From positions 1 to 38,161 of IMG/VR virus record IMGVR_UViG_3300035703_000209: a DNA stretch of 38,161 bases. One strand, given 5' to 3'. The stretch comes from a virus. The translations under genes and the position numbers were made by a program. Shown in pieces: positions 7,816 to 31,659 of this stretch (positions are counted from its first letter, which is position 1; each line of letters begins with the position of its first letter). The notes below the pieces were generated by a model, which saw only the letters and a list, made by a program, of their open reading frames with translations, was not told where the DNA came from and ran no database searches.

Positions 7816-7835
7816 GAAGTGATTGAGGAACTTTC

Positions 7836-7961: not shown

Positions 7962-7987
7962 CCTGCTCAACGGCGCTTCTTTGCCTC

Positions 7988-7993
7988 TATAAT
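7988..7993 (+). promoter_or_regulatory. -10 promoter
   Basis: TATAAT 22 nt before the ATG at 8015, followed by ACACTCA, similar to the ACTCTCA that follows -10 elements in the 24-28 kb array. Confidence 0.6.
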
Positions 7994-8014
7994 ACACTCA
8001 TACGCAACCAAGCA

Positions 8015-8491: not shown

Positions 8492-8493
8492 TT

Positions 8494-9032: not shown

Positions 9033-9033
9033 T
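9028..9033 (+). promoter_or_regulatory. -10 promoter, family A
   Basis: TATAAT, then GGTAATCAAGGGAACC, almost the same block as at 10992. The TAA of the previous gene lies inside the hexamer, so one gene ends in the promoter of the next. Confidence 0.65.
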
Positions 9034-9057
9034 ACCTAGGTAATCAAGGGAACCGCA

Positions 9058-9216
9058 ATGGTCACTGACACCGCTCAGGATGCCCAGATTCGCCGCTCTA
9101 TCCTGAAGGCAGTTGAATCTATGGATTTGCGTCTGCTGCAGCGTATTGCCTACGAAGTTCGCTGTGAAGAAATGGGAATCTATCCCGATGGTTGGAAACT
9201 CTACCCCGAAAACTGA
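9058..9216 (+). CDS. unknown small protein
   Basis: 52 residues (MVTDTAQDAQIRRSILKAVE), helical with a Trp-containing C-terminus (IYPDGWKLYPEN). AAGGG about 8 nt upstream is a weak ribosome-binding site. First gene of an operon running to 10996. Confidence 0.6.
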   Translation: MVTDTAQDAQIRRSILKAVESMDLRLLQRIAYEVRCEEMGIYPDGWKLYPEN

Positions 9217-9218
9217 TT

Positions 9219-9422
9219 ATGCAACTCTCCACTCAATCTGTTTCCAAAATTGCTGATGCACTCAAACCAGCAGTAATTGAATACATTTATGCTGATGATA
9301 AATTCACTGAATATATGCAAACTGCCATAGTTGAAGGTATTCAGGATACGATGGGTGATATGGACCAAGATTTGCTTTTTGAGATAGGTATGCTAATTTT
9401 TGACCGCATTGAATTGAAGTGA
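9219..9422 (+). CDS. conserved-type small acidic cyanophage protein
   Basis: 67 residues from the ATG at 9219, 2 nt after the previous stop: MQLSTQSVSKIADALKPAVI, then an acidic helix (GDMDQDLLFEIGMLIFDRIE). The layout is familiar from cyanophages. Its TGA overlaps the next ATG. Function unknown. Confidence 0.65.
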   Translation: MQLSTQSVSKIADALKPAVIEYIYADDKFTEYMQTAIVEGIQDTMGDMDQDLLFEIGMLIFDRIELK

Positions 9423-9736
9423 TGGTAGGTACTTTAATCGCTGGTCTTGCCTGTGGTATTGCTACATACTACGGAGTAGGAGACGGATTTAATGGACAAG
9501 TTACGGCAAATGGTGAGCGGTTTGATGCTTATCGTTGGACTGCAGCTCATCCTTATTTACCTATGGGTTCACGCATACGGGTAACAAATCAAGACAACGG
9601 AAAACAAGTAATTGTTAGAGTCAATGATCGTGGTCCATATTCTCATGCCGACCTTGATTTGAGTTATGCCGCATTTGCTCACATCGAATCGACCAAAAAA
9701 GGAAACGCCACTGTTTGTTGGAGAGTTGTTGGATGA
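9422..9736 (+). CDS. RlpA-like double-psi beta-barrel protein
   Basis: 104 residues. ATYYGVGDGFNGQVTANGER, then AAHPYLPMGSRIRVTNQDNG and VIVRVNDRGPY are the RlpA-type barrel motifs, with the His (AAHP) and Asp (VNDRGPY) used by bacterial RlpA lytic transglycosylases on denuded peptidoglycan. The first ~13 residues (MVGTLIAGLACGI) are hydrophobic and could act as a short secretion or membrane segment, but no lipobox is convincing. Likely a cell-wall enzyme or expansin-like factor acting at entry or lysis; activity is inferred. Confidence 0.85.
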   Translation: MVGTLIAGLACGIATYYGVGDGFNGQVTANGERFDAYRWTAAHPYLPMGSRIRVTNQDNGKQVIVRVNDRGPYSHADLDLSYAAFAHIESTKKGNATVCWRVVG

Positions 9737-9873
9737 ATAAATCTGAGAAAGATACACTCTACGTTACTATTGCGTTAGTGGTGTTCTTTCTACTTGACAT
9801 ACTGATAATAGGTGGTATATTATACAAAGGACATGCAAATTTTCCAGAACTCATTAAACATTTGAAATCATGA
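9733..9873 (+). CDS. single-pass membrane protein
   Basis: 46 residues with one transmembrane helix at about 9-31 (LYVTIALVVFFLLDILIIGG) and a short C-terminal tail. It lies between the RlpA-like gene and a secreted-protein gene with 4-nt overlaps on both sides, so all three may act in the envelope. Confidence 0.65.
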   Translation: MNKSEKDTLYVTIALVVFFLLDILIIGGILYKGHANFPELIKHLKS

Positions 9874-10244
9874 AAAAACTGCTTGCTCTTGCCGCTTCTC
9901 TGATTGCCGCTGCTCCTGCCGTTGCACAAGAACAAAAAGTATATCGTCCATTCCGATATGAAACACCTTGTATTCTTGAAGTAGGCATTCAAACTTATCC
10001 AGACACTTGTGTTGTGATTGAAACCCGCGAAACTGGTGGAGCACTTCGTACTCGCAATATCTTTTCCAATAAACATGCTCTTACAATCAAAGGGCGTTTT
10101 GATAAAGAGAAAGGTTATATGACGTGGGATAGTCATAATAAGTTTGAGTACAAGTGGGAATATAAAGTTGGTGGAAATCAGGAACTTGGTGTATGGACTT
10201 ATGTGATGCCTGGTTTCCTACTTCAAAACGTTAGTTGGGATTGA
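9870..10244 (+). CDS. secreted or periplasmic protein of unknown function
   Basis: 124 residues with a clear signal peptide: MKK, hydrophobic core LLALAASLIAAAPAVA, and AVAQ as cleavage site. The mature part is beta-rich (PCILEVGIQTYPDTCVVIET) with two cysteines that could form a disulphide outside the cytoplasm. Envelope location fits the RlpA-like neighbour. Confidence 0.75.
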   Translation: MKKLLALAASLIAAAPAVAQEQKVYRPFRYETPCILEVGIQTYPDTCVVIETRETGGALRTRNIFSNKHALTIKGRFDKEKGYMTWDSHNKFEYKWEYKVGGNQELGVWTYVMPGFLLQNVSWD

Positions 10245-10399
10245 TGGCACAAACAATCAAGGAGTTCTTTACCGAACGTGAATGGGAAATTATTTTAGAT
10301 GCTGTTGAGCAAGAAGGTATCCTAGAAGAAGAAAACTATGCCGATGAGTGTGGCATTATTATTGACAAAATTCATTCAATTTTAAAAAACTATGTTTGA
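10244..10399 (+). CDS. unknown small acidic protein
   Basis: 51 residues (MAQTIKEFFTEREWEIILDA), acidic and helical. Overlaps its neighbours by 1 and 8 nt. No family is recognised. Confidence 0.6.
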   Translation: MAQTIKEFFTEREWEIILDAVEQEGILEEENYADECGIIIDKIHSILKNYV

Positions 10400-10595
10400 A
10401 ACAACTGTAAACCTAAACGTTCATGAGATTGGTGTGATTTTATCCGCACTCCAGAATCTTGAGAATGCTGATGAAAATAGAATCGCCAGAGAATATGGAA
10501 GCGTTCCAGCACTGTATGACAAACTATATTCTCTCTGGGAAGTGATGGATACTTCGGAAACTGGTCTGAGGTATGATGTAGTTCCTTCTTTCTGA
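10392..10595 (+). CDS. conserved-type small cyanophage protein
   Basis: 67 residues: MFETTVNLNVHEIGVILSAL, then REYGSVPALYDKLYSLWE and MDTSETGLRYDVVPSF. This layout recurs in cyanophages in my memory. Coupled by a TGATG overlap to the next gene. Function unknown. Confidence 0.7.
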   Translation: MFETTVNLNVHEIGVILSALQNLENADENRIAREYGSVPALYDKLYSLWEVMDTSETGLRYDVVPSF

Positions 10596-10996
10596 TGAAA
10601 TTTGATTATACTCAAAAAAATATTGAGTATGTAATAAAACTGATTCGGGAAAATCTAACTCCCGATTTACTTGCATCAAAGTTTAAAAAGATTAATGAAA
10701 CCAATTCGATGTATGGACATTGTAAACATGCAAGCCAGGCGTTGATTTTGTTGATGAATACAAATCGATTACAGTTAATGAAGAATTCATCTCATGTGTG
10801 GGTTCAAGACGAAGATAAAATTTATGATGTAACATCGGATCAATTCTATTTGCAAGGTTTAACACCGTGTTATGAAAATGCAACAGTTGCTAACTATGCA
10901 CACACGGTAAAAGCGGATATTTTGATTGAAAAAGTTCTAAGGACACATTTCAAACTGGCACAGGGTAGTTGCTCTGGGCAAAACTATGACCTATAA
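10595..10996 (+). CDS. papain/transglutaminase-like cysteine protein
   Basis: 133 residues. YGHCKHASQALILL (C43 at a helix start), SSHVWVQ (H67 at a strand start) and YDVTSDQF (D78 or D82) match the Cys-His-Asp order of papain-fold enzymes such as transglutaminase-like proteases. It could cut or cross-link a host protein; no substrate is suggested. Its last codons overlap the next promoter: the stop TAA lies inside TATAAT (10992-10997). Confidence 0.6.
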   Translation: MKFDYTQKNIEYVIKLIRENLTPDLLASKFKKINETNSMYGHCKHASQALILLMNTNRLQLMKNSSHVWVQDEDKIYDVTSDQFYLQGLTPCYENATVANYAHTVKADILIEKVLRTHFKLAQGSCSGQNYDL

Positions 10997-10997
10997 T
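10992..10997 (+). promoter_or_regulatory. -10 promoter, family A
   Basis: TATAAT then GGTAATCAAGGGAACC, as at 9028. Preceded by TGGCACA at 10956-10962; a clear hairpin is not seen here. Confidence 0.6.
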
Positions 10998-11023
10998 ACA
11001 GAGGTAATCAAGGGAACCACCCG

Positions 11024-11242
11024 ATGAAAGGTCCTATCACCCTCACATCTGGTCAACTTCTGGATATCATTTCTCTTCTTGAAGAGAAAGAGGATGCTCT
11101 TTATGATGCAGAAAATAAGGGACTTTCCATGTATTATATGCAAATGGGAGTTGTCTTTCAAAAAGCATTCGACCGCCTTCAGGATCTCCCTGGTGAGCAG
11201 CGTGTCGTTGAACTTGTAATCCCCACTGCCGAACAAAAATGA
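11024..11242 (+). CDS. unknown small helical protein
   Basis: 72 residues (MKGPITLTSGQLLDIISLLE), helical and acidic, C-terminus VVELVIPTAEQK. First gene after the family A promoter; its end overlaps the next ATG. No family is recognised. Confidence 0.65.
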   Translation: MKGPITLTSGQLLDIISLLEEKEDALYDAENKGLSMYYMQMGVVFQKAFDRLQDLPGEQRVVELVIPTAEQK

Positions 11243-11388
11243 AAACATCATATTGGTTCCTTACAATCATTGCTATTCTAATGTGGAATGGTGTGCTTGC
11301 CAAACGTGACCAAGAATTGTTTAAGGCATATGATAAAGTTTGTGCCGAACTTCCTCAATCTCACCCCGATTGTCGATACGCCAAATGA
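11239..11388 (+). CDS. small membrane or secreted protein
   Basis: 49 residues. SYWFLTIIAILMWNGVLA (4-21) is a membrane helix or an uncleaved signal. The remainder is soluble with two cysteines (KVCAELPQSHPDCRY) that may pair outside the membrane. Confidence 0.6.
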   Translation: MKTSYWFLTIIAILMWNGVLAKRDQELFKAYDKVCAELPQSHPDCRYAK

Positions 11389-11597
11389 ACAACGAAGACA
11401 TTAAACAATTCATGACTGCCTTTGAAGACTTTATGAAACACTCTGAAGAAAACATCAATTCTCACAATCGTTGGGAAGAAGCACGTGCTTATGTGTTAAA
11501 CGGTAATCACAGAATGAATCTTATTGAAAACTTTATTGAAAAGAAAGCAGCAGAATTGGAAGTGACCGTTGATTATTATATGGAAGAGTTTATGTGA
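11385..11597 (+). CDS. unknown small helical protein
   Basis: 70 residues from the ATG at 11385 (ATGA overlap with the gene before), MNNEDIKQFMTAFEDFMKHS, acidic and helical throughout, ending YYMEEFM. One-base TGATG overlap with the next gene. Function unknown. Confidence 0.65.
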   Translation: MNNEDIKQFMTAFEDFMKHSEENINSHNRWEEARAYVLNGNHRMNLIENFIEKKAAELEVTVDYYMEEFM

Positions 11598-11767
11598 TGA
11601 ATGAACAGACAAAACTAATTTTTGCCTTACAGCAAATTGACAACCTAACGTCATTGATTGAGGGCAATGAATACCAACAGTTTTTGTATTCTCATCTAAT
11701 TTCAATCAAAATTGAATTGCAAAGACAGTTGACAAATCTCACACACTATTCTAAAATTAAGGAGTAA
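11597..11767 (+). CDS. conserved-type small cyanophage protein
   Basis: 56 residues: MNEQTKLIFALQQIDNLTSL, then IEGNEYQQFLYSHL and a helix ending ELQRQLTNLTHYSKIKE. Two amphipathic helices suggest a small dimer. The layout is familiar from cyanophages. Similar in pattern to 1945-2106. Confidence 0.7.
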   Translation: MNEQTKLIFALQQIDNLTSLIEGNEYQQFLYSHLISIKIELQRQLTNLTHYSKIKE

Positions 11768-11780
11768 TTTACAAATAAAA

Positions 11781-12011
11781 ATGAAGTATCTTTACATTCT
11801 TGATTACTGGGTTCCATTTCCTTCAAGTGAATATGGTGGACTCATTAATCTCATTGCCGAAAGTGACACTGAAGCATTTGAAATTCTTTCCAACGAAGAC
11901 TCATTTGATGAGCGTTATGTTGATAAAATCATGGAAAAAGTTGTAAATGCACAAAAGTTTGCTTTGGTCGATGAATATGAATCAGGAATTCTGGAAGCAT
12001 TTACTACTTAA
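11781..12011 (+). CDS. unknown small acidic protein
   Basis: 76 residues (MKYLYILDYWVPFPSSEYGG), acidic, with a probable alpha/beta fold. It follows the previous gene after 13 nt that include AT-rich sequence. No family is recognised. Confidence 0.65.
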   Translation: MKYLYILDYWVPFPSSEYGGLINLIAESDTEAFEILSNEDSFDERYVDKIMEKVVNAQKFALVDEYESGILEAFTT

Positions 12012-17428: not shown

Positions 17429-18175
17429 CTAGCGACTATAAAACCACCAATAGCCTTTCCAACTATATCGCCCAGGGTTTTTCAGACTTTTGAGAATCCC
17501 GTTCTTATCGGTACACTCAAATGCCCGAATTGCAGATGCCATACTTTCATATCTAACTTCAATTTGTTCGGTCTTTTTATTCACACCAAAGACCGATTTT
17601 TTTGTTTCCTTGGATTCTAAAATCTGCCACTTGTGACCATAGGCAGTACGTCCAGTCTTGGCAGCAAGTAGTATGTTGGAATTGTTATTCGGATTGTTTG
17701 TGATATCTTTTGCCGCATCTCTTGCACTGTCATAGTCTTTACACAGACCAGTTTCTAGGTTCTTACCACGTATTTTGAATCCTAACTTCTTACCACTTCC
17801 ACGGGTATTTTCATTCCATGGTATTAGATGTGGTGATGATTTGTATGTTCTTTGTTTCTTTTCTATAATTGTATTTGTATCTTCGACAGGTTCTACCTTA
17901 GGAATGACTTTAATTTCATTGTATTCGGGTATGTATTTCTCTATCCAGTAAGACAGTTTCTTATCGAATTCATTCTCATCACATTCATCTATTTCTTTTA
18001 TCATGAAGTTATGAGTACCGTATTCTCTGAATGCCTTATGTAAGGGTTCTGAGGACATTCTCTTGGAACGTTCTATGTGGTGTACCCATTCTTTGTTCAT
18101 GGCAAGTGTGGTGTTTCCGACGAACTTGTGCCCATTTTGTTTGTTGAGAATGAGGTAAATGATTCCCCGTGCCAT
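17429..18175 (-). CDS. GIY-YIG homing endonuclease
   Basis: 248 residues, the only minus-strand gene. MARGIIYLILNKQNGHKFVG carries the GIY and YIG strands (IY at 6-7, VG at 19-20). HHIERSKR and YWIEKYIPEYNEI follow where the catalytic Arg and Glu helices are expected. The C-terminal half (TGLCKDYDSARDAAKDITNN; KTEQIEVRYESMASAIRAFE; WKGYWWFYS) looks like two NUMOD-type DNA-binding repeats. Free-standing enzymes of this kind (Seg proteins in T4) cut unoccupied alleles and spread their own gene. It sits between the late operon and the repeat-rich 18.2-18.7 kb region. Confidence 0.85.
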   Translation of the reverse strand: MARGIIYLILNKQNGHKFVGNTTLAMNKEWVHHIERSKRMSSEPLHKAFREYGTHNFMIKEIDECDENEFDKKLSYWIEKYIPEYNEIKVIPKVEPVEDTNTIIEKKQRTYKSSPHLIPWNENTRGSGKKLGFKIRGKNLETGLCKDYDSARDAAKDITNNPNNNSNILLAAKTGRTAYGHKWQILESKETKKSVFGVNKKTEQIEVRYESMASAIRAFECTDKNGILKSLKNPGRYSWKGYWWFYSR

Positions 18176-19655: not shown

Positions 19656-20090
19656 ATGGCAATCACCCTGACCGCTTCCTACAAAGAGACTCTCAACGCC
19701 GCAACTGTTGAGAAAATCGATGAGTTGCTGGATGAGCAATATTCTCTCGAAGACATTCTGGAATTCATCGATGAGCACAATGAAGAAGACTTCGTGTCTT
19801 TCTATGAGGAATATGTTCGTTGTGGTGAGGCAATTGGTTATGAGGCAGTGGATGCCCTGATTGAAGAAATGGGTTCGCTATGCTGTGTTGAGGACTGTGA
19901 CGAGCGTTATCAAGGTTGCTACAATGATGAGGCAGATTTTGCTGAGGAATTCTATTCTGATCTCTATGATCTGCCTTGTGCAATCGTAGTGGACTGGCAG
20001 GCAACATGGGACACTGCGCTGCGCTATGATTTCACTTCGTGTCGAGATAACACTTCCTATCGTCCTGTTCACATCTTCCGTGATTGCTGA
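19656..20090 (+). CDS. ardA: ArdA-type antirestriction protein
   Basis: 144 residues, very acidic. The domain order of ArdA is visible: a helical part (LEDILEFIDEHNEEDFVSFY), ERYQGCYNDEADFAEEFYSD (compare the 'YxGxYxxxxxFAxE' motif), and WQATWDTALRYDFTSCRDNT then VHIFRDC. ArdA dimers mimic bent B-DNA and block type I restriction enzymes. E. coli-plasmid ArdA is ~166 residues, so this is slightly short. It has its own promoter and is followed by 0.6 kb without genes. Confidence 0.8.
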   Translation: MAITLTASYKETLNAATVEKIDELLDEQYSLEDILEFIDEHNEEDFVSFYEEYVRCGEAIGYEAVDALIEEMGSLCCVEDCDERYQGCYNDEADFAEEFYSDLYDLPCAIVVDWQATWDTALRYDFTSCRDNTSYRPVHIFRDC

Positions 20091-23331: not shown

Positions 23332-23919
23332 ATGAAACTCTCTACCGCTGATGTTCAGGAGCGCCTCTCTACATTCAACTTCGCCACACTTTCCAAACCT
23401 GGAAAGAACAAAGGTGAGCGTGGACAACTGTTAGAAACTGCCCTGGGTGTTGCTAACAGTTCCGACCTGAAAGATCTTACCGATGGTGAGATTAAGTCTT
23501 TCACCCAGGGTGAGTCAATTGCAGTCACTCAATTGAAGCACTGCCTCTCTGAAATCATCGAAGATAGTGTAACCTTCGCTGATAGTAAGGTTGCCGAAAA
23601 ACTTAATCAAACCATCTATGTTGGTTTCACCCGCTCCAACGATTACCTGGGTTCTGTTACTATCAATCAGGAAACTGATCCTGTTCATTATCAGCAACTG
23701 GCGGAGGATTACAACTTCATTTGTGACACCATCCGTGCTAAGTTTAACGCTGGTGAGCAACTGAGCACCACAACTGGTCCTAACGGACTGCTGCAGATTC
23801 GTACCAAAGACTCTAAAATCAAGGGCAAATACCATCCCATTGTGTTCGCTGGTTGCACCCTAAAAGACAAGGGCATGGCATTCTATCTGTGTGGCAAATT
23901 CGGTAAAGAGGTGCTATGA
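23332..23919 (+). CDS. MutH/Sau3AI-like GATC endonuclease
   Basis: 195 residues (E. coli MutH has 229). NKGERGQLLETALGVANSSD carries the MutH-type 'RGxLLExxLG' (Glu35), and DLKDLTDGEIKSFTQGESIA gives acidic residues and ExK (E53-x-K55), the PD-(D/E)xK catalytic core. The later part (TIYVGFTRSNDYLGSVTINQ; HPIVFAGC) is beta-rich as expected. MutH nicks unmethylated GATC. Together with the Dam methylase at 5732-6556 it could cut host DNA while methylated phage DNA is spared, or act in phage mismatch repair. Family by motif only. Confidence 0.75.
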   Translation: MKLSTADVQERLSTFNFATLSKPGKNKGERGQLLETALGVANSSDLKDLTDGEIKSFTQGESIAVTQLKHCLSEIIEDSVTFADSKVAEKLNQTIYVGFTRSNDYLGSVTINQETDPVHYQQLAEDYNFICDTIRAKFNAGEQLSTTTGPNGLLQIRTKDSKIKGKYHPIVFAGCTLKDKGMAFYLCGKFGKEVL

Positions 23920-24056: not shown

Positions 24057-24060
24057 CCCT

Positions 24061-24088
24061 CTATACTGATTCCAGTTCACACGACACC
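24061..24088 (+). promoter_or_regulatory. array promoter 1
   Basis: CTATACTGATTCCAGTTCAC, then ACGACACC. The 28-bp block is identical at 24331. -10 is TATACT. ATG at 24090. Confidence 0.7.
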
Positions 24089-24089
24089 G

Positions 24090-24290
24090 ATGACCGCGAC
24101 CCTCCCTACCGCCACCATCCGCACGGCGCTTCTGTCCTGGAAGGGTGAGCTCCTGAGCCTGGCAGTCAACCACCCTGAGCACTTCACGCCCTCCATTGTG
24201 GAATCCCGCCTGGATGCCATCGACGCGGCGCTGCTGGCAATCGACGGTAGCGAAACCGTGACCCTGACCCCTGCTACATGTGCCGCCTGA
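24090..24290 (+). CDS. array cassette 1: small helical protein ending CAA
   Basis: 66 residues: MTATLPTATIRTALLSWKGE, then NHPEHFTPSIVESRLDAIDA and LLAIDGSETVTLTPATCAA. First of the GC-rich cassettes. The C-terminal CAA codons form half of a hairpin with the stop in the loop. No family is recognised. Confidence 0.65.
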   Translation: MTATLPTATIRTALLSWKGELLSLAVNHPEHFTPSIVESRLDAIDAALLAIDGSETVTLTPATCAA

Positions 24291-24321
24291 GGCACTGGCA
24301 CACGGGGGGCACAGAGCCCCC
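24280..24321 (+). terminator. stop-codon hairpin, TGGCACA and GC hairpin
   Basis: GTGCC (24280-24284) pairs with GGCAC (24291-24295), stop codon in the loop; TGGCACA at 24296-24302; then GGGGGC (24305-24310) pairs with GCCCCC (24316-24321), loop ACAGA. Confidence 0.7.
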
Positions 24322-24330
24322 TCTGACCCC

Positions 24331-24358
24331 CTATACTGATTCCAGTTCACACGACACC
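24331..24358 (+). promoter_or_regulatory. array promoter 2
   Basis: CTATACTGATTCCAGTTCAC then ACGACACC, identical to 24061-24088. ATG at 24362. Confidence 0.7.
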
Positions 24359-24361
24359 CCC

Positions 24362-24607
24362 ATGCTTGTTCAGCAAATCGGCAGCAACATGACTGAGGTG
24401 ATGCTGGCAGACGGGACCGAAGTCCTGATCTCCTACACGACTCCCGTTGCTGCCCGCATCCCTGGACGGGGATGGGTCCGCACCGCTCACAAGTGGAGCG
24501 CAACGACCACCAAGCACGTCAACCGCTGGTTGACCGACAAACTAGGACGCACCGACTGCGTCCCTGCCGTGGATCAGTGGGAGATCGACCGCCTGCTGGC
24601 ATTCTAG
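24362..24607 (+). CDS. array cassette 2: conserved-type cyanophage protein
   Basis: 81 residues from the ATG at 24362: MLVQQIGSNMTEVMLADGTE, VLISYTTPVAARIPGRGWVR, TTKHVNRWLTDKLGRTDCVP. The 'QIGSNxTxVxxxDGTxVLxSYxTPVAAxxPGRG' layout is one I recall from cyanophages with ordinary base composition, so the family is not confined to GC-rich DNA. Function unknown. Confidence 0.75.
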   Translation: MLVQQIGSNMTEVMLADGTEVLISYTTPVAARIPGRGWVRTAHKWSATTTKHVNRWLTDKLGRTDCVPAVDQWEIDRLLAF

Positions 24608-24617
24608 GACGGTTGAC

Positions 24618-24643
24618 GGGGTGGCACACTGAACCGCCACCCC
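24618..24643 (+). terminator. TGGCACA hairpin
   Basis: GGGGTGGC (24618-24625) pairs perfectly with GCCACCCC (24636-24643); the heptamer (24622-24628) is partly in the stem. Confidence 0.7.
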
Positions 24644-24653
24644 ACCCCCGACC

Positions 24654-24662
24654 TGCTACAAT
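24654..24662 (+). promoter_or_regulatory. array promoter 3
   Basis: Extended -10 TGCTACAAT, then ACACTCAGTTCACACGACACC. ATG at 24685. Confidence 0.7.
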
Positions 24663-24684
24663 ACACTCAGTTCACACGACACCG

Positions 24685-24912
24685 ATGAGCACCGCTACCT
24701 ACAACGGTTGGGCAAACTGGGAGACCTGGAACGTTGCCCTCTGGATTCAGAACGATGAGGCAACCTACAAGGTCGCCCGCCAGTACGACCGCTATGATGC
24801 CCTCATCCCCCGCCTGGAGCTGATGTGGGGGCAAATGACCCCTGACGGTGCCCGCTGGATGGACGGTAAGATCGACACCGCCGAACTGGATGAGATGCTG
24901 ACCGATCTCTGA
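24685..24912 (+). CDS. array cassette 3: YNGW-NxETWNVALW family protein
   Basis: 75 residues from the ATG at 24685: MSTATYNGWANWETWNVALW, then IQNDEATYKVARQYDRYDAL. This start is shared by a widespread phage and bacterial small-protein family (I think DUF7249). Function unknown. Confidence 0.8.
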   Translation: MSTATYNGWANWETWNVALWIQNDEATYKVARQYDRYDALIPRLELMWGQMTPDGARWMDGKIDTAELDEMLTDL

Positions 24913-24914
24913 AC

Positions 24915-24940
24915 TGGCACACGGGGGGCACAGACCCCCC
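24915..24940 (+). terminator. TGGCACA element and hairpin
   Basis: TGGCACA (24915-24921), then GGGGGG (24923-24928) pairs with CCCCCC (24935-24940), loop CACAGA. Confidence 0.7.
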
Positions 24941-24949
24941 ACCCTGACC

Positions 24950-24958
24950 CGCTACAAT
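24950..24958 (+). promoter_or_regulatory. array promoter 4
   Basis: CGCTACAAT followed by ACTCTCAGTTCACAAGCAACC. ATG at 24985. Confidence 0.65.
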
Positions 24959-24984
24959 ACTCTCAGTTCACAAGCAACCGACCA

Positions 24985-25170
24985 ATGCCCACCAAAGTGT
25001 ACGCCGTGATCGCTGGAATTGACTATGAGGGTGAGGTCTTTGAGACCCTCCGCCTGTTCGATTGCTTCTCTGCTGCTGACGCTTACCTGAAGCATCTTGG
25101 GGAAGAATACGACTACGCTAAGATGGACACCCGCGAAGTGTGCATGGAATCCGCCCTGTGTGCCGCCTGA
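24985..25170 (+). CDS. array cassette 4: small acidic protein ending CAA
   Basis: 61 residues: MPTKVYAVIAGIDYEGEVFE, TLRLFDCFSAADAYLKHLGE, then EYDYAKMDTREVCMESALCAA in parts. It has the look of a small phage family with a beta strand, a helix after 'D--SAA-AYL', and 'YD---MD-REV'. The end again codes CAA and forms a hairpin with the stop in the loop. Confidence 0.68.
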   Translation: MPTKVYAVIAGIDYEGEVFETLRLFDCFSAADAYLKHLGEEYDYAKMDTREVCMESALCAA

Positions 25171-25210
25171 GGCACTGGCACACTGAACCACACGGGGGCG
25201 CCCTGCCCCC
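25160..25210 (+). terminator. stop-codon hairpin, TGGCACA and GC hairpin
   Basis: GTGCC (25160-25164) pairs with GGCAC (25171-25175), stop in the loop; TGGCACA at 25176-25182; then GGGGGC (25194-25199) pairs with GCCCCC (25205-25210). Confidence 0.7.
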
Positions 25211-25219
25211 TGCTACAAT
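25211..25219 (+). promoter_or_regulatory. array promoter 5
   Basis: TGCTACAAT directly after the hairpin, then ACTCTCA. ATG at 25243. Confidence 0.7.
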
Positions 25220-25242
25220 ACTCTCACAACGCAAGACGCCCC

Positions 25243-25404
25243 ATGCGCTTCGAAGTTCGCTACCAGACCCCCTACGGTGAGTGTGAGTGGCGCTCCCAAT
25301 GGTTCCCCACCAAGGAGGAGGCAGACCGCATGGTAGACTTCTACCGCTCCTGTGGTTCCCCCTCTCACATCGCCCCCAGTTCTCTGGCACAACTGGAACG
25401 CTGA
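25243..25404 (+). CDS. array cassette 5: unknown small protein
   Basis: 53 residues: MRFEVRYQTPYGECEWRSQW, FPTKEEADRMVDFYRSCGSP. A beta hairpin then a helix is suggested. The stop TGA forms the TGn of the next extended -10 (25402-25410). Confidence 0.62.
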   Translation: MRFEVRYQTPYGECEWRSQWFPTKEEADRMVDFYRSCGSPSHIAPSSLAQLER

Positions 25405-25410
25405 TACAAT
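25402..25410 (+). promoter_or_regulatory. array promoter 6 overlapping a stop codon
   Basis: TGATACAAT; the TGA is the stop of cassette 5. The leader to the ATG at 25468 is unusually long (~55 nt) and differs from the other array leaders. Confidence 0.55.
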
Positions 25411-25467
25411 GGGAGCGGGTGCGCCCTTAAAGACGCCCAAATTCAAACCACAATTCTGAATTCTATC

Positions 25468-25602
25468 ATGACCCGCGACCTCGCCCTCTCCTTGCTCCGC
25501 TCTGGCAACGACGGCGCTGAGATTCTGCAGATCCTGGATACCATCGCCGCCGATGATATCATGCCGACCGCCGAACCGACTGCCGAAGAAATCCAGTTCT
25601 GA
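25468..25602 (+). CDS. array cassette 6: conserved-type small protein
   Basis: 44 residues: MTRDLALSLLRSGNDGAEIL, then QILDTIAADDIMPTAEPTAE. The 'ALSLLRxGNxGxxILQILDxI' layout is common in cyanophages and marine cyanobacteria in my memory. Function unknown. Confidence 0.72.
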   Translation: MTRDLALSLLRSGNDGAEILQILDTIAADDIMPTAEPTAEEIQF

Positions 25603-25605
25603 TAG

Positions 25606-25637
25606 TGGCACAACGGAGGGGGACGTCCCCTCCCTTT
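25606..25637 (+). terminator. TGGCACA element and rho-independent terminator
   Basis: TGGCACA (25606-25612), then GGAGGGG (25615-25621) pairs with CCCCTCC (25627-25633), followed by CTTTTG. Confidence 0.8.
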
Positions 25638-25643
25638 TGCCTC

Positions 25644-25649
25644 TATACT
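25644..25649 (+). promoter_or_regulatory. array promoter 7
   Basis: TATACT after the terminator; ATG at 25670. Confidence 0.6.
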
Positions 25650-25669
25650 GAGGGAACCGAAGCGAACCG

Positions 25670-25864
25670 ATGACCGAACACCGCCTGCTCTGCCTCTACG
25701 AAGACATGCTCTGCCTGGCAGCGGCAATTGCCAATGAGATGTATGGTTGCGACCTGGACCGCCTGGACCCTGAGGAACTGGAATGGTACGGTTCCCGCCT
25801 GACCGAAGACAACCTGGAGGAAGTGGCAAACGACCTGGCATCCGCCGCCTGGTTCGCCTACTGA
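25670..25864 (+). CDS. array cassette 7: small acidic helical protein
   Basis: 64 residues: MTEHRLLCLYEDMLCLAAAI, then DLDRLDPEELEWYGSRLTED. Helical and acidic. Single-gene unit. No family is recognised. Confidence 0.65.
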   Translation: MTEHRLLCLYEDMLCLAAAIANEMYGCDLDRLDPEELEWYGSRLTEDNLEEVANDLASAAWFAY

Positions 25865-25873
25865 CCCGCGACC

Positions 25874-25882
25874 TGCTACAAT
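25874..25882 (+). promoter_or_regulatory. array promoter 8
   Basis: TGCTACAAT, then ACTCTCA. ATG at 25903. The stop of cassette 7 is only 10 nt upstream; no hairpin fits between. Confidence 0.65.
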
Positions 25883-25902
25883 ACTCTCAAAGCAAACGAC
25901 TC

Positions 25903-26079
25903 ATGACCCTTCCTGGTTTCGAATACCCTCACCAACTGCAACCTGGATGCTGGCAGGCACGTGCCTGCCGCCGCGCCCTGGAGGACCTGGAGCATGACGA
26001 CCTGATGGACGCCGACGACTACGATCGCCGCCGCGCTCAGCGGGACGGTTGGATCAGTGACACACAGGGTCGCTACTGA
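25903..26079 (+). CDS. array cassette 8: small charged protein
   Basis: 58 residues from the ATG at 25903: MTLPGFEYPHQLQPGCWQAR, then DLEHDDLMDADDYDRRRAQR. Alternating acidic and basic blocks, two cysteines. Function unknown. Confidence 0.62.
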   Translation: MTLPGFEYPHQLQPGCWQARACRRALEDLEHDDLMDADDYDRRRAQRDGWISDTQGRY

Positions 26080-26094
26080 CCCCCGCCGACCCCC

Positions 26095-26100
26095 TACAAT
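26095..26100 (+). promoter_or_regulatory. array promoter 9
   Basis: TACAAT followed by ACTCTCAGTTCAGACAACC; no TGn. ATG at 26124. Confidence 0.6.
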
Positions 26101-26123
26101 ACTCTCAGTTCAGACAACCGCTC

Positions 26124-26288
26124 ATGACCCGCTACGACGTGATCTGCCCCTCCGCTCCCTGGGAGAACACTACCACCGACGCCGACCGCGCCTGGGACCT
26201 CTGCCTGAACCTCTCTGAGGAGTACGGTTACGCCCAGGTCCGCTGCAATGGGGTGATCATCGGAGACTACACTGACGGGCACGCCTGA
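26124..26288 (+). CDS. array cassette 9: unknown small protein
   Basis: 54 residues: MTRYDVICPSAPWENTTTDA, DRAWDLCLNLSEEYGYAQVR, ending YTDGHA. A small alpha/beta fold is suggested. No family is recognised. Confidence 0.62.
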   Translation: MTRYDVICPSAPWENTTTDADRAWDLCLNLSEEYGYAQVRCNGVIIGDYTDGHA

Positions 26289-26308
26289 GGGGTTGCCCCC
26301 CCCCGATC

Positions 26309-26317
26309 TGCTACAAT
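26309..26317 (+). promoter_or_regulatory. array promoter 10
   Basis: TGCTACAAT, then ACTCTCAACCGCAACGGACC. GGGG-TTG-CCCC lies just upstream. ATG at 26340. Confidence 0.65.
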
Positions 26318-26339
26318 ACTCTCAACCGCAACGGACCCG

Positions 26340-26549
26340 ATGACCTACCAAGAGTATCAGCGCCGCGAACTGCTCAAAACCGCCACCATCTGGGTGAGCA
26401 CCGGCGCCGTCATCATCCTGCTGGCAATCGGATACGGCACCCTGCTGAACCGCGCCAACGATCGGATCGAAGCACGGTGCGCCGCTCAGGGTGGACAGGC
26501 ACTTGTGACGCCTGGCGAAGTGACCCGCTGCCTGCAACCTGCCCGCTGA
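26340..26549 (+). CDS. array cassette 10: single-pass membrane protein
   Basis: 69 residues. A charged N-terminus (MTYQEYQRRELLKTATIW) precedes one transmembrane helix (VSTGAVIILLAIGYGTLL, about 19-36). The tail has two cysteines (EARCAAQGG, VTRCLQPAR) that may pair outside the cytoplasm. Confidence 0.65.
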   Translation: MTYQEYQRRELLKTATIWVSTGAVIILLAIGYGTLLNRANDRIEARCAAQGGQALVTPGEVTRCLQPAR

Positions 26550-26551
26550 CC

Positions 26552-26560
26552 TGCTACAAT
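26552..26560 (+). promoter_or_regulatory. array promoter 11
   Basis: TGCTACAAT, then ACTCTCAGTTCAACCGACACC. ATG at 26590. Only 2 nt lie between the previous stop and the element. Confidence 0.65.
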
Positions 26561-26589
26561 ACTCTCAGTTCAACCGACACCCCCGACCG

Positions 26590-26814
26590 ATGAACCTCTA
26601 CATCATCAGCGAAGTGCTCTACGACTACACTGACGGCATGGTGGTCATCGCTGCCGAATCCCTGGACCGCGCCCGCGCCCTGTTCCAGGACAAGTGGAGC
26701 AGCGCCCGCCTCCTGCAGGAGTTTGACGCCGCCATCGGCGGCGCCGCATACAAGGTCCTCCAGGTTCAGGATCAGGCGGAGGGCATTGTCTCCTATGTCT
26801 TCGGTGGGGGTTGA
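26590..26814 (+). CDS. array cassette 11: unknown small protein
   Basis: 74 residues: MNLYIISEVLYDYTDGMVVI, AAESLDRARALFQDKWSSAR, ending VSYVFGGG. The 'Y-ISE-LYDYTDGMVVIAAES---A---F' layout is common in phage small proteins in my memory. The TTGACC of the next promoter overlaps its stop. Confidence 0.68.
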   Translation: MNLYIISEVLYDYTDGMVVIAAESLDRARALFQDKWSSARLLQEFDAAIGGAAYKVLQVQDQAEGIVSYVFGGG

Positions 26815-26840
26815 CCTCCTGCCCTCTGACCCTGTAGAAT
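26811..26840 (+). promoter_or_regulatory. array promoter 12 with -35
   Basis: TTGACC (26811-26816), 18-nt spacer, TAGAAT (26835-26840), then TCTCTCA. The stop TGA of cassette 11 is inside the -35. Confidence 0.7.
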
Positions 26841-26865
26841 TCTCTCAACCACACCCCACCGACCG

Positions 26866-27012
26866 ATGACCGACTTTTTCGCAGACTACCTCTCAAACCT
26901 CTCCGCGCTGTCGGACGCTGATCTCTGCTGCCTGCTGATCGATGCCGTAGACTTCGATGACGATGCCGCCTTTAAGATTGTGAACGCTGAGATGGGTCGG
27001 CGCGGTATCTGA
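26866..27012 (+). CDS. array cassette 12: small acidic protein
   Basis: 48 residues: MTDFFADYLSNLSALSDADL, CCLLIDAVDFDDDAAFKIVN. Acidic, helical, two adjacent cysteines. No family is recognised. Confidence 0.62.
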   Translation: MTDFFADYLSNLSALSDADLCCLLIDAVDFDDDAAFKIVNAEMGRRGI

Positions 27013-27014
27013 CC

Positions 27015-27023
27015 TGCTACAAT
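27015..27023 (+). promoter_or_regulatory. array promoter 13
   Basis: TGCTACAAT, then ACTCTCAACCGCACCCC. ATG at 27046. Two bases after the previous stop. Confidence 0.65.
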
Positions 27024-27045
27024 ACTCTCAACCGCACCCCACCCC

Positions 27046-27264
27046 ATGCGCTACCCCATCAGCACCGCCGACAGCAGCGCCATCGACACCCTGAGCGTCA
27101 ACCCCGTCACGGGCACGGTGCGGGTGCGGTTTCAACGCTACTGGACTGAGCGCCCCTACACTTTCAAGGTCGACCGCTCTGCGATTCTCTCCCTGATTTG
27201 GGACAGCAACCGCTCACTGGGACAGTGGGTCAACCGTCACTGCCGCTCTATTGCCGACGTCTGA
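27046..27264 (+). CDS. array cassette 13: KTSC-like domain protein
   Basis: 72 residues: SSAIDTLSVNPVTGTVRVRF, QRYWTERPYTFKVDRSAILS, then SNRSLGQWVNRHCRS. It follows the KTSC pattern 'SSxIxxVxYxPxTxxLxVxFxxG...YxYxxV...SxGxxxNxxI'. KTSC domains occur beside RNA-related proteins, but no activity is known. Moderate match. Confidence 0.65.
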   Translation: MRYPISTADSSAIDTLSVNPVTGTVRVRFQRYWTERPYTFKVDRSAILSLIWDSNRSLGQWVNRHCRSIADV

Positions 27265-27266
27265 CC

Positions 27267-27275
27267 TGCTACAAT
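27267..27275 (+). promoter_or_regulatory. array promoter 14
   Basis: TGCTACAAT, then ACTCTCAGTTCAACCGACACC. ATG at 27302. Confidence 0.65.
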
Positions 27276-27301
27276 ACTCTCAGTTCAACCGACACCGACC
27301 G

Positions 27302-27499
27302 ATGACCGACCGTACCTTTCAAACCATCATCGCTGCCATGTGCTCTGGCATGGTTCTGACTGTGGCAGGCGCCTGGACTCTACAGGCAGCGCAGGCAACG
27401 GTCAATGCCTGGCAGGAGGCAGAGGCAATCGAATGGTGCCACCGTCAGGCAGGAGGCAGCCCTGAGGTCTGTGGACCCCTGCCAGGTGACGGTCACTGA
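27302..27499 (+). CDS. array cassette 14: small membrane-anchored protein
   Basis: 65 residues: MTDRTFQTIIAAMCSGMVLT, then VAGAWTLQAAQATVNAWQEA. A hydrophobic segment (about 8-27) is followed by a soluble tail with two cysteines (EWCHRQAGGSPEVCG). Layout matches cassette 10. Confidence 0.62.
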   Translation: MTDRTFQTIIAAMCSGMVLTVAGAWTLQAAQATVNAWQEAEAIEWCHRQAGGSPEVCGPLPGDGH

Positions 27500-27538
27500 A
27501 CCGTCCTTCACCCCCTGCTGCTGGCCGCGGCGACCGAC

Positions 27539-27544
27539 TAGAAT
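27539..27544 (+). promoter_or_regulatory. array promoter 15
   Basis: TAGAAT, then TCTCTCAGTTCAGACAACC. ATG at 27568. No clear -35. Confidence 0.55.
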
Positions 27545-27567
27545 TCTCTCAGTTCAGACAACCACTC

Positions 27568-27771
27568 ATGACCGAAGCATACGCCATCTTCACCACTGGC
27601 ACCGACTACTATGACCGCGCCGAACTGTTCGGACTGTACGCCTCCGCTGAGAAGGCAGAGGCAGAGGCAGCGGTCCTGCGTGAGCGCCTGGAGGATGAGG
27701 ACTGCGCTTCCTATCCTGGTGAGCGCCTCTACTCCCTGGTGAGCGTCTCCTACGTTCCCATCCGCTACTGA
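27568..27771 (+). CDS. array cassette 15: unknown small acidic protein
   Basis: 67 residues: MTEAYAIFTTGTDYYDRAEL, FGLYASAEKAEAEAAVLRER, ending LVSVSYVPIRY. The 'Y-IF--GTDY---ELFGLYAS-EKAEAE' pattern suggests the same beta-strand plus helix design as cassettes 4 and 11. Function unknown. Confidence 0.65.
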   Translation: MTEAYAIFTTGTDYYDRAELFGLYASAEKAEAEAAVLRERLEDEDCASYPGERLYSLVSVSYVPIRY

Positions 27772-27778
27772 CCTCTCT

Positions 27779-27805
27779 AGGGGGCGGGTTGACCGCCTGC
27801 CCCCT
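27779..27805 (+). terminator. hairpin carrying the next -35 in its loop
   Basis: AGGGGGCGGG (27779-27788) pairs with CCTGCCCCCT (27796-27805), ten pairs with one G-U; the loop contains TTGACC. Confidence 0.7.
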
Positions 27806-27817
27806 ATGGACTACAAT
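27789..27817 (+). promoter_or_regulatory. array promoter 16 with -35 in a hairpin loop
   Basis: TTGACC (27789-27794), 17-nt spacer, TACAAT (27812-27817), then TCTCTCAGTTCACAGGACACC. Near-consensus sigma70 spacing. Confidence 0.75.
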
Positions 27818-27843
27818 TCTCTCAGTTCACAGGACACCGCCTC

Positions 27844-28065
27844 ATGACCCGCCAGAACCTGGAAACCGAACTGCTGAACGACTGGAATCAAGTCATGGCA
27901 GACCTGACCCCCGCCGAACGTGAGGCACTGGCCGCGGCGACTCCTAAGGACTGGTTCGCTGCCATCGCTGAACTGATTGCCGACCCCACCTTCTGGCAGG
28001 GTCTGGGCATCGCCTTCCTGGAGGGCATCGCTAAGGGTCTGGAGGATTTCAACGCCGACCGCTGA
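27844..28065 (+). CDS. array cassette 16: unknown small acidic helical protein
   Basis: 73 residues: MTRQNLETELLNDWNQVMAD, LTPAEREALAAATPKDWFAA, then a C-terminal helix (GLGIAFLEGIAKGLEDF). Single-gene unit. No family is recognised. Confidence 0.65.
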   Translation: MTRQNLETELLNDWNQVMADLTPAEREALAAATPKDWFAAIAELIADPTFWQGLGIAFLEGIAKGLEDFNADR

Positions 28066-28067
28066 TC

Positions 28068-28076
28068 TGCTACAAT
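28068..28076 (+). promoter_or_regulatory. array promoter 17
   Basis: TGCTACAAT, then ACTCTCATCCGCAACGGACC. ATG at 28100. Confidence 0.65.
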
Positions 28077-28099
28077 ACTCTCATCCGCAACGGACCCCG

Positions 28100-28291
28100 A
28101 TGACCGACCTCTGCTTCCCCGCTCAGATCGCTGAAATCACCAACCCCGACAACGGGACCATCTACTGGATTGAAGCGGCATACGCTGCCAAGCTGCACGG
28201 TCTGTGGGATGACTTCCGCACCGACTACGGAACGACTGCTGCCTTCGGTGGGGTCGATGCTGGCGAATTCCTGGAGTGGTTGGGGTATTGA
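28100..28291 (+). CDS. array cassette 17: unknown small acidic protein
   Basis: 63 residues from the ATG at 28100: MTDLCFPAQIAEITNPDNGT, IYWIEAAYAAKLHGLWDDFR, ending FLEWLGY. The stop TGA overlaps the TTGACC of the next promoter. No family is recognised. Confidence 0.62.
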   Translation: MTDLCFPAQIAEITNPDNGTIYWIEAAYAAKLHGLWDDFRTDYGTTAAFGGVDAGEFLEWLGY

Positions 28292-28316
28292 CCCCTGCCC
28301 CCTGACCCTGTAGAAT
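28288..28316 (+). promoter_or_regulatory. array promoter 18 with -35
   Basis: TTGACC (28288-28293), 17-nt spacer, TAGAAT (28311-28316). GGGG and CCCC flank the -35 so that TTGA sits in a small loop. The following CTCTCA block is absent here (TCCAAAGCAAACGC instead). Confidence 0.65.
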
Positions 28317-28341
28317 TCCAAAGCAAACGCACCCCAGACCC

Positions 28342-28539
28342 ATGGCACTCTACAACTGCGCCTCTGACCTTGCCACCCGCCAGACCATCTGGGTCAGCAC
28401 CAACGTCGTGAAGGGGCGTCCTCAGTTGAACTCTCACCGTGCCGACCGTGCTGGCGCTTCCCTGGCATCCGCTGGCATCGACGGATTCTGTGCCGCCGAA
28501 CTGGCAGGACTCCACACCGACTACGTTGGGCGGGGTTGA
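28342..28539 (+). CDS. array cassette 18: unknown small protein
   Basis: 65 residues: MALYNCASDLATRQTIWVST, NVVKGRPQLNSHRADRAGAS, ending TDYVGRG. Mixed charge. The stop TGA overlaps the next TTGACG. No family is recognised. Confidence 0.58.
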   Translation: MALYNCASDLATRQTIWVSTNVVKGRPQLNSHRADRAGASLASAGIDGFCAAELAGLHTDYVGRG

Positions 28540-28565
28540 CGCCCTGCTCAACGACCGACTACAAT
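28536..28565 (+). promoter_or_regulatory. array promoter 19 with -35 in a hairpin loop
   Basis: TTGACG (28536-28541), 18-nt spacer, TACAAT (28560-28565), then TCTCTCAGTTCACACCC. GGGCG (28528-28532) and CGCCC (28540-28544) flank the -35. Confidence 0.7.
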
Positions 28566-28588
28566 TCTCTCAGTTCACACCCCCACCC

Positions 28589-28810
28589 ATGATGCAACCC
28601 GCTCCGATGACCGCCGCCGAACTGAACGCCGCCATCGCCTCAGGTGCCATGTCCTTCCGCCGCCTGCCCACTGCCCATGGCGCTGCTACCAACCGTTGGG
28701 CATCGCGTATCAAGGGCGGCAGCAGCAGGGTCCGCACCCATGGCGGCGCCGCTGGTTCCCATGGCACCCGCATGAGCACCGCTAACAGCGCCCTGGCAGA
28801 CGTGCGCTGA
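28589..28810 (+). CDS. array cassette 19: small basic Ala/Gly/Ser-rich protein
   Basis: 73 residues: MMQPAPMTAAELNAAIASGA, then MSFRRLPTAHGAATNRWASR and KGGSSRVRTHGGAAGSHGTR. Basic (about ten Arg/Lys) and probably disordered in its second half; nucleic-acid binding is possible. ATG at 28592 is an alternative start. Last cassette before a strong terminator. Confidence 0.58.
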   Translation: MMQPAPMTAAELNAAIASGAMSFRRLPTAHGAATNRWASRIKGGSSRVRTHGGAAGSHGTRMSTANSALADVR

Positions 28811-29246: not shown

Positions 29247-29999
29247 ATGGCTAAAGGATTTACTGTTAAAGCAAAGGCGCCTGTCGCATCGGAGCAAGAA
29301 TGGGACTATAATAAAGCAAGAGAAATGATTGCTGGAAAAACCATTGTATTTTGCCTTCCTGGACGAGGAGTCTCATATACATATTTGAAAAACTTTGTTC
29401 AACTCTGCTTTGATCTTGTGCAGAGTGGTGCAAGTATTCAAATTTCCCAAGACTACAGTTCAATGGTAAACTTTGCTCGTTGCAAATGTCTTGGTGCAAA
29501 TGTTCTCCGTGGTCCAGATCAAATTCCTTGGGACGGAAAACTAAACTACGACTATCAATTGTGGATTGATAGTGACATTGTCTTTAATACCGAAAAATTT
29601 TGGCAACTTATCCTGATGGATAAAGATATTGCAGCTGGGTGGTACTGTACAGAAGATGGCATGACCACATCTGTAGCACACTGGTTGGATGAAGAAGATT
29701 TTCGTGGAAATGGCGGTGTCATGAATCACGAAACTCTTGAAAGCATTTCAAAGCGTCGCAAACCATTTACAGTCGATTATACTGGGTTTGGATGGTTGCT
29801 AATTAAGCACGGTGTTTTTGAGCACTCTGAAATGAAATATCCCTGGTTTGCACCGAAAATGCAAGTCTTCGAATCCGGAGAAGTGCAAGATATGTGCGGT
29901 GAGGATGTTTCTTTCTGTCTCGATGCAAAAGAAGCAGGATTTGAGATTTGGTGCGATCCTCGCATCCGTGTCGGACATGAAAAAACCAGAATTATCTGA
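29247..29999 (+). CDS. GT-A-type glycosyltransferase
   Basis: 250 residues. YQLWIDSDIVFN (D108-S-D110) is the metal-binding DxD motif of GT-A glycosyltransferases, and CGEDVSFCLDAKEAGFEIWC, then DPRIRVGHEK is the usual C-terminal acceptor-side motif with ED. This type of gene is common before the baseplate genes in cyanomyoviruses in my memory. It probably adds sugar to phage DNA, a virion protein or a host surface molecule. Confidence 0.8.
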   Translation: MAKGFTVKAKAPVASEQEWDYNKAREMIAGKTIVFCLPGRGVSYTYLKNFVQLCFDLVQSGASIQISQDYSSMVNFARCKCLGANVLRGPDQIPWDGKLNYDYQLWIDSDIVFNTEKFWQLILMDKDIAAGWYCTEDGMTTSVAHWLDEEDFRGNGGVMNHETLESISKRRKPFTVDYTGFGWLLIKHGVFEHSEMKYPWFAPKMQVFESGEVQDMCGEDVSFCLDAKEAGFEIWCDPRIRVGHEKTRII

Positions 30000-31257: not shown

Positions 31258-31659
31258 ATGGCAACAGACAGAATGTCTAGGGGATTTAAGGATATAAGCC
31301 TGTCTTTCGATATGCACCCTATCACCAAAGACATTCTTGTTCTTAAGAACGAAGATGCGATTAAAAAATCTATTCGTAATATTATTCAAACATTACCATA
31401 TGAAAGATTTTTTAATCCTCTTTTTGGAACTGATGTAAGAACAAGCCTATTTGATTTTATCGATTTTGGTACGGCATCAATTCTTCAAGAACAACTTACA
31501 GTTTCTATTGAAAATTTTGAATCAAGAATTTCAAATTTAAGAATTGATGTTCTCCCTAAACCAGATGAATATGGATTTGAAATCACAGTCGATTATACAA
31601 TCATTGGGCAAGAATTACAACCACAGCAATTTACATATATTTTAGAGGCAACCAGGTAA
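31258..31659 (+). CDS. 25: baseplate wedge protein gp25
   Basis: 133 residues, close to T4 gp25 (132). RGFKDISLSFDMHPITKDIL, VLKNEDAIKKSIRNIIQTLP, YERFFNPLFGTDVRTSLFDF match the gp25/GPW family, with the EPR-like core replaced by the usual YERFFNP..G. In T4 it joins gp6 and gp53 in the wedge and the sheath initiator. Followed after 6 nt by gp6, the T4 order. Confidence 0.93.
   Translation: MATDRMSRGFKDISLSFDMHPITKDILVLKNEDAIKKSIRNIIQTLPYERFFNPLFGTDVRTSLFDFIDFGTASILQEQLTVSIENFESRISNLRIDVLPKPDEYGFEITVDYTIIGQELQPQQFTYILEATR

Follow-up and report, generated by a model that had tools for sequence, protein, structure and literature searches.

Single-gene promoter cassettes arrayed at a hyperplastic locus of T4-type cyanophages and probably exchanged at their promoter repeats

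We analysed a viral stretch of 38,161 nucleotides (nt), positions 1 to 38,161 of IMG/VR record IMGVR_UViG_3300035703_000209 (hereafter the window), whose source, judged from its sequence, is a T4-type, Kyanoviridae-like cyanophage with marine or freshwater cyanobacteria as hosts. Between positions 24057 and 28810 of its plus strand lies an array of 19 units, each holding one small gene. A preliminary description, made from the letters alone, had reported nineteen genes of 44–81 codons lying head to tail in 4.75 kb, and this was borne out: all 19 open reading frames (ORFs) lie on the plus strand, span 24090–28810 and are separated by intervals of 33–77 nt. The composition noticed by eye, close to 60% GC with G/C-ending codons next to DNA of roughly 30% on the right, was likewise recovered. 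Per kb, the GC content is 0.585–0.616 (about 0.60) in the array, 0.44–0.48 on its left and 0.26–0.39 on its right; per ORF it is 0.55–0.68, and 0.62–0.87 at third codon positions (GC3). Homologues of all 19 ORFs occur in other loci (1 to 153 matches each at 60% coverage), and the median ratio of nonsynonymous to synonymous substitution rates (dN/dS) against these homologues is 0.18–0.57 across the 19, as under purifying selection; these ORFs are thus real genes. The units are listed below, with product lengths in amino acids (aa).

24090–24290, plus strand: gene 1, 66 aa; -10 TATACT at 24062–24067; 3 homologues, dN/dS 0.24
24362–24607, plus strand: gene 2, 81 aa, family f2, phrog_5643; -10 TATACT at 24332–24337; hairpin upstream
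24685–24912, plus strand: gene 3, 75 aa, family f5, DUF7249 (PF23907), phrog_871; -10 TACAAT at 24657–24662; hairpin upstream
24985–25170, plus strand: gene 4, 61 aa, family f8, phrog_17343; -10 TACAAT at 24953–24958; hairpin upstream
25243–25404, plus strand: gene 5, 53 aa, family f6; -10 TACAAT at 25214–25219; hairpin upstream
25468–25602, plus strand: gene 6, 44 aa; atypical promoter TGATACAAT at 25402–25410, overlapping the gene 5 stop; 134 homologues
25615–25633, plus strand: stem-loop followed by a T-rich tail, the sole canonical terminator-like hairpin between window cassettes
25670–25864, plus strand: gene 7, 64 aa; -10 TATACT at 25644–25649; hairpin upstream
25903–26079, plus strand: gene 8, 58 aa, family f61; -10 TGC-TACAAT at 25877–25882
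26124–26288, plus strand: gene 9, 54 aa, family f4, phrog_17176; -10 TACAAT at 26095–26100
26340–26549, plus strand: gene 10, 69 aa, family f25, one hydrophobic segment; -10 TGC-TACAAT at 26312–26317
26590–26814, plus strand: gene 11, 74 aa, family f28; -10 TGC-TACAAT at 26555–26560
26866–27012, plus strand: gene 12, 48 aa, family f39; -35 TTGACC at 26811, spacer 18, -10 TAGAAT at 26835–26840
27046–27264, plus strand: gene 13, 72 aa, family f11, phrog_7365; -10 TGC-TACAAT at 27018–27023
27302–27499, plus strand: gene 14, 65 aa; -10 TGC-TACAAT at 27270–27275; one homologous locus at 60% coverage
27568–27771, plus strand: gene 15, 67 aa, family f13; -10 TAGAAT at 27539–27544; 85% identity to a gene of phage S-PM2
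27844–28065, plus strand: gene 16, 73 aa, family f17; -35 TTGACC at 27789, spacer 17, -10 TACAAT at 27812–27817; hairpin upstream
28100–28291, plus strand: gene 17, 63 aa, family f1 (50 loci); -10 TGC-TACAAT at 28071–28076
28342–28539, plus strand: gene 18, 65 aa; -35 TTGACC at 28288, spacer 17, -10 TAGAAT at 28311–28316
28589–28810, plus strand: gene 19, 73 aa, basic, family f16; -35 TTGACG at 28536, spacer 18, -10 TACAAT at 28560–28565

Three products (those at 24362, 24685 and 25468) had been said to resemble families known elsewhere. This holds for the first two, which match phrog_5643 and DUF7249/phrog_871, but the third has no library match, yet 134 homologues, some of them at a GC of 0.47.

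We then considered the promoters. For 18 of the 19 genes, the ATG follows a sigma70-like -10 hexamer at a distance of 20–29 nt, whereas base-shuffled leaders gave such a hexamer before 1.67 genes on average and 6 at most. Gene 6 alone departs from this pattern, its atypical promoter TGATACAAT lying 57 nt upstream. The exact core TACAATNCTCTCA is present in 11 copies in the array and in none elsewhere in the window, on either strand. Two promoter forms can be told apart: genes 12, 16, 18 and 19 carry TTGACC/G at 17–18 bp upstream of the -10 and no TG, while genes 3, 5, 8, 10, 11, 13, 14 and 17 carry TGC abutting the -10 and no TTGAC box; no gene of the window carries both the spaced TTGAC and the TGC. 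Among the 552 unique sites collected from relatives, 44 of 53 TTGAC boxes are likewise at 17–18 bp. Both forms look like working sigma70 promoters, and separate transcription of each gene fits the sequence. The leaders are C/A-rich and show no clear Shine–Dalgarno motif by eye, in the window as in the relatives (about 16–25 nt). As for the hairpins described in the left part of the array, they do precede genes 2–5 and 7, and gene 16, on the right, has one as well; about 6 of the 18 intervals are so marked and the others mostly have none, and in the relatives a hairpin is found in 100 of 244 intervals between cassettes.

Scanning viral contigs for TACAATNCTCTCAGTTCA returned at least 119 stretches; more than 100 viral contigs, as well as phage S-PM2, carry homologous arrays. 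Requiring at least three contiguous cassettes, we called 88 arrays (locus-strands) and 564 cassettes. Grouping the proteins of all called cassettes gave 128 families, of which 65 are multi-member. Nearly all testable arrays occupy one place, upstream of gp25 in the hyperplastic region between T4-type core genes, which is delimited in the window by the following genes.

23332–23919, plus strand: left flanking gene, phrog_15364; locus boundary, conserved in relatives
29247–29999, plus strand: right flanking gene, phrog_1574; locus boundary, conserved in relatives
31258–31659, plus strand: gp25, baseplate wedge; T4-type core gene that fixes the place of the locus

The large gene adjoining gp25 is one that we take to be gp6. 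For 51 arrays the sequence on the right is long enough for a test; a homologue of the right flanking gene lies within 3.5 kb of 49 of them, and one other has gp25. The array is not invariant among relatives, an outcome that the preliminary description had named as contrary to its proposal: between the same two flanking genes we counted 0, 1, 3, 5, 6, 7, 9 or 14 promoter sites. In loci L445–L447 the flanking genes are separated by about 450 bp with no promoter site; because these relatives are fairly distant, with 66% identity in the left gene, they demonstrate that an empty locus can exist and not that cassettes were recently excised. S-PM2 has a shorter homologous array in the same place, with shared genes in a different order. 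The comparison thus agrees with the collection of gained and lost cassettes proposed at the outset, and indicates that relatives differ by gain, loss and exchange of whole promoter–gene units at one constant site.

The junctions at which relatives diverge were located with respect to the promoters. Between the window and locus L129, identity is about 99% from the -10 of gene 16 (27812–27817) rightwards and the sequences are unrelated leftwards, the whole 1.5-kb block being 96.7% identical. Loci L376 and L377 share 704 identical bp that end just inside a -10, after which they hold different cassettes. In all arrays taken together, breakpoints cluster at the -10 and the leader: 205 of 305 distinct junction types fall within -40 to +45 of a -10, against 25% expected, and at 98% identity or more 16 of 16 junction types fall outside called cassette genes. 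Among segments shared at 90% identity or more and bounded by a -10 on both sides, 103 contain exactly one cassette and 2 contain two, a count that includes redundant contigs; 245 further shared segments failed this rule, partly since some array genes had not been called as cassettes. Cassette order is largely conserved. Adjacent pairs are kept in 54% of cases and relative order in 87%; among array pairs without any common adjacency relative order is still 83%, against 50% after shuffling. This suggests exchange between roughly aligned arrays, which predicts that order is kept, rather than integron-like insertion at one end or free insertion of circles, which does not; shared ancestry also contributes to the conserved order. 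A duplicated family was found in 3 of 59 non-redundant arrays, as expected of unequal crossing over. We also considered strong homogenisation of promoters within an array and rejected it, the effect being slight (leader similarity 0.763 within arrays and 0.747 between them).

The closest known kind of system appears, by analogy, to be the shuffling of promoter-early stem-loop (PeSL) cassettes in T4-type phages, reportedly described by Arbiol et al. in 2010 and Comeau et al. in 2014 (cited in PMC4177764, PMC5348500 and PMC4503421). In both, sigma70-like early promoters (recognised at the sequence level in the array) are repeated among genes of the hyperplastic region that are nonessential or, in the array, presumably so; a stem-loop often accompanies the PeSL promoter and stands in some intervals of the array. 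In both, too, insertions, deletions and swaps among relatives have their ends in the repeated elements. The array differs in having a promoter for nearly every gene (19 in 4.75 kb), in lacking a terminator-like hairpin in most intervals, in its conserved order and in its host-like GC inside an AT-rich phage, and would thus be a dense, one-gene-per-promoter variant. The S-PM2 array (PMC3037559, 2010) lies at the same genome position and resembles that of the window in its homologues of genes 3, 10, 13 and 15, its CAGTTCA leaders and its GC of 0.47–0.61; it differs in having about eight cassettes in another order, promoter variants such as TAGGATAACTTCAGTTCA and an ArdA-like cassette, and its cassette structure is not described in the portions of the literature considered here. 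For another region of S-PM2, its other 'ORFanage', Puxty et al. 2015 (PMC4503421) judged PeSLs too sparse to be the explanation. Outside this group, the early anti-defence regulons of archaeal viruses (PMC11065993) also place many small unrelated single genes under one strong early promoter sequence; these promoters are archaeal, anti-defence activity was tested for some of the genes, and the sections of that paper available to us do not describe exchange at the promoter. Of the features of such regulons, the arrays have the shared promoter on many small genes and, in S-PM2, L267 and L410 though not in the array of the window, ArdA-like members. In halovirus HF2 (PMC8707807) intergenic repeats have been shown to be promoters; HF2 is an archaeal virus whose transcripts are longer and often overlapping, and cassette exchange is not described in the excerpts of that work at hand.

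We consider it likely that the array represents a hyperplastic locus in a T4-type cyanophage, built of one-gene promoter cassettes that are exchanged at their promoter/leader repeats. Each cassette would place one gene for a small protein behind a short leader and a promoter of the sigma70 type, and the host RNA polymerase would transcribe it separately, early in infection. The comparison of relatives shows that segments are exchanged at the near-identical repeats, so that related phages swap, gain, duplicate or lose one cassette at a time at the fixed site upstream of gp25; this would happen through homologous or microhomology recombination carried out by the phage's own T4-type machinery. 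Phage T4 amplifies and deletes genes at homologies of 2–10 bp, including the counter-defence locus dmd-tifA (PMC9391042), so that such a mechanism needs no special enzyme. Exchange would occur mostly between roughly aligned arrays, leaving relative order intact; the products would be nonessential, and their combination may be tuned to the hosts met. The locus would in effect be a shuffling region of the PeSL type, pared down to a single gene for each promoter.

The arrays of the relatives have a GC of 0.59 ± 0.025 (range 0.51–0.64, 88 arrays) and right flanks of 0.37, and since high GC is common to all 88 it is an old property of the array lineage. Homologous families are also found between the same two flanking genes in AT-richer relatives, at a GC of about 0.34–0.47 and with another repeated element, TTGGATCCTCTAAAGTGTCCTAGTAGTAT or a variant of it. 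We observed TTGGATCCTCTAAAGTGTCCTAGTAGTAT or TTACTC...AAAGTGTCCTAGTAGTAT before homologous small genes in loci L408, L444, L425 and L411 and about 120 stretches, and this element is readable as a -35, a 17–18 bp spacer and a TAGTAT -10. In phage S-CREM1 (L288), homologues of cassette families are tightly packed at 6990–11800, at a GC of about 0.42–0.49 and without a repeated promoter. These genomes imply that neither the genes nor the locus need high GC and that one repeated promoter can replace another. Comparing GC3 with the host, as had been proposed, gave a mixed answer: the array, at 0.73, is near Synechococcus WH7803 (GC 0.60, GC3 about 0.7), but a plain match of array GC to host GC was rejected because of S-CREM1, recorded on Synechococcus CB0101, a high-GC host. 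More broadly, it seems to us an evenly balanced proposition that the cyanophages of this group draw on a common, population-wide library of about 65 multi-member families of single-gene early units, in which the promoter is the crossover site, one ready-to-express gene is traded at a time and order is common, while lineages differ in promoter 'dialects' at the same locus.

Several points weigh against exchange at the promoter repeats. The contigs of the relatives are partly redundant, so that event counts are upper bounds; few of the hairpins present in some intervals are terminator-like (one with a T-rich tail in the window); and the distance from stop codon to the next -10 is short (median 19 nt), which makes breakpoints at the promoter hard to separate from breakpoints anywhere between genes, while selection against broken genes could add to their clustering. 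Leader similarity is higher among members of one gene family taken from different arrays (0.815) than among the cassettes of one array, which implies that promoter and gene mostly travel together, and most cassette families have no functional assignment in profile scans. The locus could then be an ordinary hypervariable early region, in which illegitimate recombination occurs anywhere, selection spares intergenic junctions and the promoters serve expression without guiding recombination. Short intergenic stretches would make the survivors look promoter-bounded, leaders do move with their genes, and the AT-richer relatives and S-CREM1 hold homologues with a different repeat or none. We nevertheless judge this explanation rather unlikely, given the L376/L377 junction inside a -10, the L129 identity that begins at one, the clustering of breakpoints at the -10 and leader and the large excess of one-cassette over two-cassette shared segments. 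It is less probable still that the repeats are kept only as recombination or binding sites within one long transcript: the few clear terminators make read-through likely, but the TTGAC boxes keep a conserved spacing of 17–18 bp and TGn serves as the alternative to them, as expected of working sigma70 promoters.

The nearness of the array's GC3 to that of WH7803, when core genes of the window have a GC3 of 0.17–0.21, would also be explained if the block had recently entered an AT-rich phage from a host genome or plasmid of high GC. We find this very improbable, as a search of 200 genomes from the host order found neither the array promoter, which is phage-specific, nor family f1, and DUF7249 in 2 of them, the high GC extends to all 88 arrays and is therefore old, and homologues in AT-richer relatives lie at the same locus. 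We attach hardly any credence to cassette insertion at attachment sites by an integron or another site-specific system, despite the modular one-gene units, their high turnover and the hairpins of some intervals. The analogy with integrons drawn at the outset stands for modular gain and loss, and breaks down elsewhere: no integrase-like protein was seen among the scanned proteins of the array and flanks, the record being a fragment, and no attI/attC-like element in the DNA examined; no hairpin is common to all junctions; and conserved order does not suit insertion at one end. Identity with an integron was also rejected because the genes have their own -10 elements instead of being promoterless cassettes under a common promoter.

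Regarding function, scans of 71 representative array proteins with PADLOC and NCBIfam gave no reliable match. ArdA-like genes (phrog_36653) are cassettes with the same promoter and leader in S-PM2, L267 and L410, and such a gene adjoins the array in L091. The window has its own copy to the left of the array and outside it.

19656–20090, plus strand: ArdA-like anti-restriction gene, phrog_36653; homologues are array cassettes in S-PM2 and L267/L410

This copy is preceded by TGCTACATTACATTC, which resembles a diverged array promoter, and by CTGGCACA, as in array intervals. Considering the ArdA-like cassettes and the archaeal-virus parallel, the case that the cassette products are early host-takeover or anti-defence proteins is about even. 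The model of family f4 (gene 9; predicted local distance difference test score, pLDDT, 83.5) has a small beta-alpha-beta-beta fold, whose top three PDB matches are the RB69/T4 antitoxin Dmd at non-significant E values of 0.34–0.89; the f4 sequence profile did not retrieve Dmd, and a Dmd-like f4 is a lead, not a result. The model of family f1 (pLDDT 80) had no PDB match. One called cassette, at L035:2865-3086 (minus strand), encodes a HicA-like toxin (phrog_18430, E 1e-19).

Small early phage genes are a main source of anti-defence and host-takeover proteins, yet they are hard to find; a fixed locus, a recognisable promoter and about 65 multi-member families provide a search handle for those of cyanophages, and the natural combinations in arrays are a record of the genes traded. 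The sharp breakpoints suit tests of phage promoters as recombination sites, and the dense promoter-bounded shuffling seen here concerns phages in which, for another region, such shuffling had been considered unlikely.

Minor observations were also made. Rfam and tRNA scans of the window gave no matches. On the minus strand, 17429–18175 is a 248-aa ORF against the general gene direction, with a GIY-YIG-like start by eye and no Pfam match. Metallopeptidase-like cassettes of family f14, with the motif HELIHCRQ, lie at L036:10007-10345 (minus strand) and L267:1449-1784, and a longer window ORF at 8535, outside the array, has HELTHLRQ. Finally, terminal cassettes (families f16 and f12; window 28589–28810 and L245:1788-2126) encode strongly basic products (+7 and +11), whereas the other products are mostly acidic.

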